Assembly: GCA_028275365.1 (NCBI GenBank)
Contig: JAPWUU010000001.1
Location: forward strand, 38,208 to 102,207
DNA: 64,000 bases
Direction: 5' to 3'
Origin: Candidatus Caldatribacterium sp.
GTDB lineage: Bacteria; Atribacterota; Atribacteria; Atribacterales; Caldatribacteriaceae
Shown here piece by piece: positions 9,416 through 11,659 of the stretch. Numbering within the stretch: position 1 is the stretch's first letter; the number at the start of each line of letters is the position of its first letter. A program made the position numbers and the translations under genes. The notes beneath the pieces were generated by a model. The model was not told the DNA's origin, did no database searches, and was given only the letters and a program-made list of their open reading frames with translations.

Positions 9416-9444
9416 AGTATAGTACCTCCCGGGGCGTGAGGCAA
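9416..9444 (-). promoter_or_regulatory. Promoter of the DUF72-SDR-cyclase-zwf operon
   Basis: On the minus strand TTGCCT (9444-9439), a 17-base spacer and TATACT (9421-9416) form a sigma-70-like promoter, with the start codon 13 bases further on and AGGAAG between them. Confidence 0.6.
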
Positions 9445-9750
9445 CTGAACAAGTAGATCTGCAACAGGGAGGGTAGGAGAAAAGAGCAGTGTATAGGAAA
9501 GCAGGTATTCTTCTTTCTAGCATGTTCCAGGAAACGGGGAGAGCTCGGGAAAGTGCCCCTTTCCAGTACGGGCGAAGAGGCGATGGAGTAAGGATGGTGG
9601 AGCGACTCAACCGTACCTTCCAGAAGGATTCCCCCTGTCCTGCAATGATAAAGTGGACCTTAACACTATGAGGTTCCAAGGAGAAGACTACACCGGAGCG
9701 CGAGGGAGAGGAGCCCTGGGGAGAGCTGAGGGGATACCGTACTTTAATGC
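9445..9750. other. Stretch without a recognisable gene
   Basis: No frame here encodes anything I recognise on either strand. The stretch separates the DUF72 operon promoter from the promoter of the ATPase/DUF3226 pair. Its base composition is more mixed than that of the neighbouring genes. It may be a scar of the event that brought in the ATPase pair, but no terminal repeat was found. Confidence 0.4.
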
Positions 9751-9779
9751 TTGACTTGTGGGGAGTGAAGCAGTAGAAT
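9751..9779 (+). promoter_or_regulatory. Promoter of the ATPase-DUF3226 pair
   Basis: TTGACT (9751-9756), a 17-base spacer and TAGAAT (9774-9779) form a strong sigma-70-like promoter 45 bases before the ATPase start codon. Confidence 0.65.
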
Positions 9780-9823
9780 CGGATGCACCCGGTGTGGATG
9801 CAGAGAAAGAGGGCATTTGAGCT

Positions 9824-10921
9824 ATGTACCAATCTTTTGAGGTGAGGAATTTTCGGTGTTTCCGCGAATTAAAGCTCGATGAACTGGCCCAAATCAACCT
9901 TGTCGTGGGGGCTAACAACGTTGGCAAAACGGCATTGCTGGAGGCTCTGTTTATCCACTGTGGGACGTACCGTCCTGAGCTGACGTTCAAGGTTAATGCT
10001 TTCCGTGGGGTGGAGCAAGTAAAGGTTGAACTGGGCCGATGGGCTGAAACACCGTGGGATGGCCTTTTCCACCAGTTTGATGTTTCTCAGGCTATCACCT
10101 TGGAAGGAAAGGACACGGTCGCAGGTTGGCGGCTGGTTCGGTTGAGAGTTTTGCGCGATGTATCGGAACTGGCAGAGATAATGGCATCCTTGCACACTGT
10201 GGGAGTAACCCCTGTCCCTTACGGGCACCTGAGGGTTTCCGTGGCCACGGAGATTGCTCAGGTGCTCGAACTGGAGTACACGATGGACGGCAGAGGCGGA
10301 AAGTTTTACGCAGTCATAGACCCGAACGGGGTTCGTTTTGCGCCGATTCCACCTGCTCCTCCTTTTCCGGCTTTCTTTCAGACCTCCCGTGGGCGTGTTT
10401 CTTTTAGGGATGAGGCCGAAATGTTTGGAAATCTGCAAGTTCGGGGTGAGCAGGACGAGGTCCTGAAGGTTCTTCGGCTCATCGAGCCGAGACTCCGCCG
10501 TCTTGAAATGGTGGTTGTTGCCGGAGAACCGATCCTGCATGGAGATATAGGTGGCAACCGCATGATTCCTTTACCCTTTCTCGGGGAAGGTATGGTCCGT
10601 CTGGCGAGTCTGGTTTTGCATATCGGCAATGCACCCGATGGTGTCGTGCTTGTGGACGAAATTGAGAACGGACTTCACCATACCGTTTTGACCTCGGTGT
10701 GGCAGGCTGTTGGGGAAGCCGCGAGAAAGTTCAACACACAGATTTTCGCCACGACTCATAGCCTGGAGTGTGTTATTGCTGCTCACAAAGTGTTCTCACA
10801 GACCCAATCCTGTGAGTTCCTCTTACACCGTCTAGAACGGGTGAACGACGAGATTAGGGCCATCACTTACGATCGGGAAACTTTAAAAGCAGCTATTGAG
10901 GCGGATCTCGAGGTGCGGTAA
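9824..10921 (+). CDS. AAA family ATPase (OLD/AAA_15-like)
   Basis: This 365-residue ATPase is of the SMC/RecF-like AAA_15/AAA_21 group found in OLD nucleases and PARIS-type defence systems. Its N-terminus is the standard YQSFEVRNFRCFRELKLDEL strand pattern. Walker A is GANNVGKT (about residues 30-37), Walker B is VVLVDEIENGLH (about 273-284) and the switch histidine lies in ATTHSLE. It carries no TOPRIM domain of its own. The next gene, read without any gap, encodes a TOPRIM-like DUF3226 protein, so the two together equal a split OLD nuclease. Base composition looks lower in GC than the surrounding genes, suggesting lateral transfer. The defence role is inferred. Confidence 0.85.
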   Translation: MYQSFEVRNFRCFRELKLDELAQINLVVGANNVGKTALLEALFIHCGTYRPELTFKVNAFRGVEQVKVELGRWAETPWDGLFHQFDVSQAITLEGKDTVAGWRLVRLRVLRDVSELAEIMASLHTVGVTPVPYGHLRVSVATEIAQVLELEYTMDGRGGKFYAVIDPNGVRFAPIPPAPPFPAFFQTSRGRVSFRDEAEMFGNLQVRGEQDEVLKVLRLIEPRLRRLEMVVVAGEPILHGDIGGNRMIPLPFLGEGMVRLASLVLHIGNAPDGVVLVDEIENGLHHTVLTSVWQAVGEAARKFNTQIFATTHSLECVIAAHKVFSQTQSCEFLLHRLERVNDEIRAITYDRETLKAAIEADLEVR

Positions 10922-11530
10922 ATGCCCATACAGATTACGTCCCCCTGTGTTCTGGTGGTCGAAGGGGAAGAAGACAAGCGGTTTTTTGAGGCGTTGCTTC
11001 GGTATTTGCAGCTGGAAGCACAGGTGATACCGGTTGGTGGCAAGACCCAACTGAGGTATGGCCTGAAAGCTCTCGTTCAAAGCCCTCGTTTTTATACGGT
11101 AGCTCGCTTAGGAGTGTCAAGAGATGCGGATAGTGCCCCGAGGGCTGCGTTTCAAAGTGTGTGCGATGCCCTGAGGACCCTGGGTTTGCCGTTTCCTGCT
11201 GATCCGTTACATGTTGTGGAAGGCTGTCCTCAGGTTGGCGTCTTGATTTTGCCGGGTCCAGACACGCCGGGTACCCTGGAAGACCTTTGCCTTGAGGCTG
11301 TTGCTCAGGATCCGGCTATGGACTGCGTGGAGAGGTACTTTCAGTGCTTACGACAACAAGCCATTCCTGTGGCCGATAGCAAAATCTCAAAAGCAAAAGT
11401 TCATGCGTTCCTGGCGTCAAAGCCGGAACCGGGGAGACGACTGGGCGAAGCAGCACAGGCCGGTTACTGGCCGTTCGATAACAAGGCCTTTGAACAGGTG
11501 AAGGACTTCCTTAAGCGTTTGTTCGGGTGA
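10922..11530 (+). CDS. DUF3226 TOPRIM-like protein
   Basis: This 202-residue protein matches the DUF3226 pattern, a TOPRIM-related domain. The acidic motif VVEGEEDKRFF lies at residues 11-21 and a DxD motif at about 68-70 (SRDAD), with a later GTLEDL segment. These are the metal-binding positions expected of TOPRIM nucleases. It begins immediately after the ATPase stop codon, so the two are cotranscribed and probably form one complex. In OLD, Gabija GajA and PARIS, an ATPase of this class works with a TOPRIM nuclease; DNA or tRNA cleavage during phage attack is an inference by analogy. Confidence 0.75.
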   Translation: MPIQITSPCVLVVEGEEDKRFFEALLRYLQLEAQVIPVGGKTQLRYGLKALVQSPRFYTVARLGVSRDADSAPRAAFQSVCDALRTLGLPFPADPLHVVEGCPQVGVLILPGPDTPGTLEDLCLEAVAQDPAMDCVERYFQCLRQQAIPVADSKISKAKVHAFLASKPEPGRRLGEAAQAGYWPFDNKAFEQVKDFLKRLFG

Positions 11531-11659
11531 CCTGAGCCCTTGCTCTTACTGCGGGTTTCATTCTGAGCTCCTGGGAGGTTTGGTGTGCAGACGTTTTTCC
11601 GTTACCTTCCACCTGCCCCGGCATGGTAGAATGAAGGAAGTACGAAAGGAGGTCTTGCT

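Follow-up and report, generated by a model that had tools for sequence, protein, structure and literature searches.

The gene pair and its sequence features

The window, by which we mean the whole stretch of 64,000 nucleotides analysed here, carries an ATPase gene followed immediately by a gene for a second, apparently TOPRIM-like protein. We asked whether these two genes form a defence system in which the ATPase and nuclease halves of an OLD-type protein have been split, as in PARIS. The features to which we refer are as follows.

9423..11621, no strand: inserted accessory block of 2,199 bp flanked by two divergent host genes, for DUF72 and zinc dehydrogenase (from empty sites)
about 9592..9745, + strand: decayed 3' end of a transposase gene with an rve_3 integrase core (from DNA identity and a broken reading frame)
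9751..9779, + strand: promoter-like TTGACT-N17-TAGAAT (from a pattern scan)
9824..10921, + strand: OLD/AbiLi/PDC-M38A-type ABC ATPase, 365 aa, C-terminus LEVR (from the ORF, profile matches and family alignment)
10910..10924, + strand: coupling junction, GAGGTG (codons of E-V), CGG, TAA and ATG (from sequence and family statistics)
10922..11530, + strand: DUF3226 Toprim nuclease-like protein (PDC-M38B), 202 aa, with E14, D68, D70, E120 and K157

Both ORFs were recovered on the + strand at the positions given in the preliminary description; they share one frame with a gap of 0 nt, TAA occupying 10919-10921 and ATG beginning at 10922. The motifs reported there, GANNVGKT and LVDEIENG in the ATPase and VVEGEED and DAD in its partner, were all present. 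In Pfam, the ATPase matched AAA_15 (E 3.2e-22), and the second protein matched DUF3226 (E 2.3e-36) and, weakly and under the cut-off, OLD-like_TOPRIM (E 0.0027).

A promoter of its own had also been claimed for the pair. TTGACT-N17-TAGAAT is indeed found at 9751-9779, but matches of this type occur about as often as in shuffled sequence (2 observed vs a mean of 1.0, sd 0.9), which is near chance. The lower GC that had been noted by eye was reproduced by counting: the insert has a GC content of 0.534 vs 0.568 +/- 0.013 in the remainder of the window, and GC3 is 0.562 and 0.545 in the two genes vs 0.664 +/- 0.032 in 17 other ORFs of the window.

When the two proteins were compared with PADLOC models, the best matches were PDC-M38A for the ATPase (8.7e-58, with AbiLi at 1.2e-53) and PDC-M38B for its partner (3e-14), and the genes of PDC-M38 are adjacent, as they are here. 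The pair is therefore already catalogued as a phage-defence candidate, and a reading of it as a new kind of system is not supported, since PADLOC-DB holds models for both proteins. The Klebsiella, Bipolaricaulota and ANME homologues also received PDC-M38 labels; in their ATPases, the AbiLi score was at least as high as the PDC-M38A score. A literature search by name found no published description of PDC-M38 or DUF3226. As characterized in a portion of PMC12988326, PDC candidates are guilt-by-embedding predictions, most of them unvalidated and many lying outside defence islands; two other PADLOC candidates gave no defence in tests described in part of PMC12409345.

The pair behaves as a unit across genomes

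A search with the ATPase alone returned 80 genome loci, in 76 of which a DUF3226 ORF, with its start codon picked by script, began -22 to +42 nt from the ATPase stop. This agrees with the two-gene unit proposed from the window alone. The most frequent arrangement was a 1-base overlap (34 loci). Of the four exceptions, two loci have their genes 259 and 291 nt apart, L069 is cut by a contig end, and L075 is not a pair. In the reverse search by DUF3226, the ATPase lay upstream in 5 of 6 loci over the cut-off; the exception, L006, has a transposase-like gene upstream of DUF3226. ATPase and DUF3226 distances correlated in a mirror-tree comparison that leaves species history in (r 0.76, n=74), and 1,000 shuffles gave values of at most 0.14. 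Such pairs are spread over numerous bacterial phyla and also occur in archaea.

We clustered 390 neighbours of 78 loci in search of a third component; the largest recurrent cluster covered 4 loci, so we conclude that the pair has no third gene. Scanning the window for Rfam families and for tRNAs gave no hit, so no retron-like ncRNA is indicated by Rfam.

The locus L075, although counted by script, was rejected as a pair, its DUF3226 fragment being fused to a C5 DNA methylase frame 3.5 kb away. The region concerned (L075 13328-15235) holds a second ATPase of the family and then the reading frame that joins the DUF3226 fragment to the C5 cytosine DNA methylase, and may be a gene fusion or a recombination scar. 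Separately, a different ATPase plus Toprim-like pair was seen in the same family of organisms (L008 224-2040, G011:C43), with PADLOC matches to HEC-01A and, weakly, HEC-01B.

The DUF3226 protein is a predicted OLD-type nuclease

AlphaFold2 modelling of the DUF3226 protein with 72 sequences gave a Toprim fold (pLDDT 97.4, pTM 0.92). Both Foldseek and VIA placed Pyrococcus PH0156 (2p62, Z 13.1) first, followed in VIA by the OLD nucleases 6p74 (Z 10.3), 6njv (9.7) and 6nk8 (9.6). Further VIA matches were T7 primase (9.2), GajA (7.4), PARIS 8ux9_A (7.1) and retron Eco2 (6.8), and values below about 9 are to be read as unspecific because several succinyl-CoA synthetase chains reach Z 8 to 9 with the same model; a family missing from the VIA lists was not taken as evidence. 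Hence the TOPRIM-like character first read from motifs was upheld by the fold, whose absence had been named as an argument against the proposal, and by OLD nucleases among the best structural matches.

The catalytic residues of BpOLD are E400, E404, D455, D457, T506, E508 and K562, as described in a portion of PMC6755086. Against E400, D455, D457, E508 and K562 of this set we placed E14, D68, position 70, E120 and K157 of DUF3226. Among 79 genome-locus rows of DUF3226 (incomplete rows included, and L075 also inside), E14 was found in 74, D68 in 75, E120 in 75 and K157 in 76, and all four were kept in each of 18 further rows. Position 70 was D in 47 of the 79 rows, N in 4 and E in 25, so that the second Asp of the DxD motif, in contrast to OLD nucleases, is often replaced by Glu. 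In the model, the last Toprim strand is followed by a helix that begins with E120, as it does with E508 in BpOLD, and K157 stands in a later helix, like K562; the equivalent of T506 is not kept and is mostly Met. The E, DxD, E, K set is otherwise that of the Class 1/2 OLD nucleases TsOLD, BpOLD and GajA. Taken together, conservation and model indicate that DUF3226 is a Toprim protein with a helical part, retaining the two-metal and lysine residues of OLD nucleases (E/DxD/E/K), and we predict it to be a nuclease.

We also noted a Cys-x6-Cys pair, C135/C142, on one predicted helix of DUF3226 (each Cys in 76 of the 79 genome-locus rows). It is kept in the main clade and lost in the Klebsiella form and in most viral-contig forms.

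Comparison with known systems and proposed function

When the ATPase and DUF3226 were joined by reading through the stop codon, the resulting model (pLDDT 92.9, pTM 0.86) had OLD 6p74, GajA and retron Eco8 as its best Foldseek matches, in line with the OLD-like architecture suggested earlier. The junction block (residues 361-370) had a mean pLDDT of 67, and the interface was not used as evidence because the link between the proteins was forced. OLD proteins of Classes 1-3 are single polypeptides, whereas the window encodes two, with TAA and then ATG between them. PARIS (AriA/AriB, 'Class 4' OLD) is like the window pair in that one gene encodes the ATPase and its neighbour the Toprim protein; however, its effector is DUF4435/AriB and the effector here is DUF3226. 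The window effector is not a member of Pfam DUF4435 (E 0.1, 12.8 bits, cut-off 27), and it matched PADLOC AriB at 0.0025 vs 3e-14 for PDC-M38B. Class 4 is reported in a portion of PMC12796447 to be restricted to bacteria, whereas DUF3226 pairs also occur in archaea. In Gabija, a UvrD-like helicase gene, GajB, stands beside the ATPase-Toprim gene; none stands beside the window pair, whose neighbours are DUF72, zinc dehydrogenase and sugar-binding regulator genes, and no Gaj model was among the 10 families matched at E <= 1e-15 by the 56 ORFs of the window. AbiL of Lactococcus is related through its ATPase, as the AbiLi model is matched by the window ATPase (1.2e-53) and, end to end, by an archaeal homologue (2.9e-60). 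Its partner AbiLii belongs to the RloB family (a portion of PMC10440598), and no AbiLii or RloB model was among the Pfam and PADLOC matches of the window DUF3226 protein.

In the passages of the reviews that treat this point (including PMC12796447), PARIS is the only OLD class named as having its ATPase and Toprim parts split. The DUF3226 pair suggests that there is a second split group, broader and extending to archaea, with an active site predicted to be OLD-like and a putative regulatory tail. What is added here to the listed PDC-M38 candidate type is the predicted OLD catalytic set and a tail of apparent dual use.

We consider it probable that the pair is a self-contained, horizontally moving, PDC-M38-type two-gene module that works as a split OLD/PARIS ATPase-gated nuclease defence. 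Gating is proposed by analogy with PARIS, in which AriB, which cuts tRNAs, stays bound to AriA until its release is triggered by a phage protein (described in part of PMC12409363), and with GajA, in which the nucleotide state of the ATPase domain gates the nuclease (part of PMC12796447). By this analogy, the ATPase would form an ATP-bound complex that keeps the nuclease inactive; an infection signal, such as a phage protein or a change in nucleotides or DNA, would free or activate the nuclease; and the active nuclease would cut host or phage nucleic acid, either DNA or tRNA, halting phage growth, often at the cost of the cell. The conserved OLD lysine would fit DNA cleavage, and the AriB precedent indicates that a Toprim protein may cut tRNA.

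A conserved E-x-R tail overlaps a putative ribosome-binding site

Among 79 genome loci, with L075 counted in, the C-terminus of the ATPase was exactly [ED]-x-R in 77 and EVRG in the other two, and this tail is absent from the ATPases of the other Toprim-like pairs in these data (L008 and the second pair of L062). In a 98-row codon table made up of the genome loci, the window, 5 other genome or plasmid rows and viral-contig rows, 92 rows had the [ED]-x-R ending. The tail Glu was encoded by GAG in 71 of 85 cases, vs a fraction of 0.42 in the remainder of the genes, and this preference produces GAGGT-like Shine-Dalgarno matches. The codons of the ATPase tail thus appear often to offer a Shine-Dalgarno-like sequence to the nuclease gene. 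Translational coupling through the tail would have the inhibitor made ahead of the effector or together with it.

A pure Shine-Dalgarno effect was rejected as the full explanation of the tail. A 4-base match was missing in 15 of the 92 E-x-R (or D-x-R) tails, which still kept the residues, and all six codons were in use for the Arg; for these reasons we regard the tail as constrained as protein. Judging from these codon patterns, constraints on the protein and on the ribosome-binding site seem both to act. No p-value is attached to the tail statistics because the rows are related. A bolder reading, which we offer only tentatively and would not yet favour, is that DUF3226 pairs are a separate class of split OLD systems in bacteria and archaea, in which the E-x-R tail serves as a docking or inhibitory latch for the nuclease, while its codons form the ribosome-binding site from which the nuclease gene is translated. 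If this is true, one short stretch couples protein inhibition with protein dosage.

The pair lies in an insert and on mobile DNA

All four congeners lack the pair, and two of them, G001 and G003, show the exact empty site in which GAGTATAG meets CATGGTAGAAT: they read ..AGTATA(G/T)CATGGTAGAAT.., where in the window 2,199 bp separate GAGTATAG from CATGGTAGAAT. These two empty sites make the locus a clean natural case of before and after. In G002 and G004, other inserts stand upstream of this dehydrogenase: an asparagine-synthase-like gene and an rve_3 transposase fragment in the former (G002:C76, L037 1-1757), and a Mutator-type transposase in the latter (G004:C27, L038 4800-6142). The site preceding the dehydrogenase operon looks like a recurrent insertion spot. 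We found no direct or inverted repeats at the flanks of the insert.

The flank had been described as gene-free. This holds in part, but about 9592-9745 contains the decayed end of an rve_3 transposase, which reads VERLNRTFQ.. in a broken frame and whose DNA is 73-84% identical to the transposase ends of G000, G002 and G004; the homologue in L042 matches Pfam rve_3 at 3.6e-16. Further short copies of this decayed end lie in the same genome (G000:C145:15230-15280 and G000:C19:58286-58333). Since the pair adjoins such debris, it could itself have decayed here and lost its function, but both ORFs are full length and E14, D68, D70, E120 and K157 are all present in the window protein, which makes this very improbable.

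Of 50 genomes from the phylum, 2 had a DUF3226 match over the cut-off. In a tree of the ATPase, many of whose deep forks are weak, the window copy grouped with rows from Bipolaricaulota and Armatimonadota and not with the G017 copy, which comes from the same order. Plasmid records matching the DUF3226 protein numbered 130, of which 125 were from Klebsiella; the pair is carried by small ColRNAI-type plasmids, and Klebsiella plasmids of 4.2 kb have it as their main cargo. The Klebsiella pair was matched in 9 of 5,426 E. coli genomes, in every place on plasmids (4.7-kb plasmids). Plasmids of about 4 kb that carry the pair make an E. coli assay practical. Neither protein matched any of the phage records. 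In the Kp13 plasmid pKP13c, the ATPase gene is in pieces.

These data show that the pair is an accessory, horizontally moving module on mobile or accessory DNA. A conserved core locus with no mobile link had been named as evidence against the defence proposal; the empty sites, the presence in 2 of 50 genomes and the plasmids show that the locus is not core. The pair is real, accessory, mobile and well conserved, and it is another member of an already listed candidate type.

Small plasmids devoted to the pair would also suit a toxin-antitoxin-like addiction module, in which the Toprim nuclease would be a toxin, the ATPase its antidote, and the stabilisation of plasmids or islands the main role of the pair. 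Modules that combine a Toprim_OLD toxin with an AAA antitoxin have been described (part of PMC10440598), the pair dominates the cargo of the 4.2-kb Klebsiella plasmids and is also on the 4.7-kb E. coli plasmids, and translational coupling puts the ATPase first. However, many copies reside in genome contigs from phyla that are not related, including complete chromosomes, and there are Klebsiella plasmids that persist although their ATPase gene is broken. We judge addiction as the main role to be unlikely; it and phage defence are compatible with each other.

Genomic context of the pair

The preliminary description had called for a survey of neighbours in defence islands. For 32 loci with long flanks, we compared PADLOC matches at 1e-15 between a random 143 of 189 genes within 3 kb of the pair, genes of > 1,200 aa being left out, and all 132 of 132 genes >= 6.5 kb away (6.5-10 kb). 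Near and far yields were similar among the matches listed, and in both sets most matches were one member per family (near set: best 25 of 54 families). No enrichment near the pair was visible, and we therefore claim none. In the window, the 56 ORFs matched 10 PADLOC families at E <= 1e-15, and none of the ORFs outside the pair was defence-like except for a generic mad3 match. The module travels alone.

The absence of visible island enrichment would also be expected of a non-defence enzyme of chromosome maintenance, and there is a precedent in the archaeal OLD-family protein Cran1, which is described in a portion of PMC12796447 as acting in cell-cycle progression and not in defence. The pair is, however, sporadic, being over the cut-off in few genomes of its phylum, missing from all congeners with clean empty sites, and borne on plasmids; because this distribution is too patchy for a core repair enzyme, we hold such a role to be quite improbable, and ATPase-gated nuclease defence remains the preferred reading.

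Suggestive neighbours were seen in two loci, DUF1156 in L002 and QueC in L005, both with a putative link to defence.
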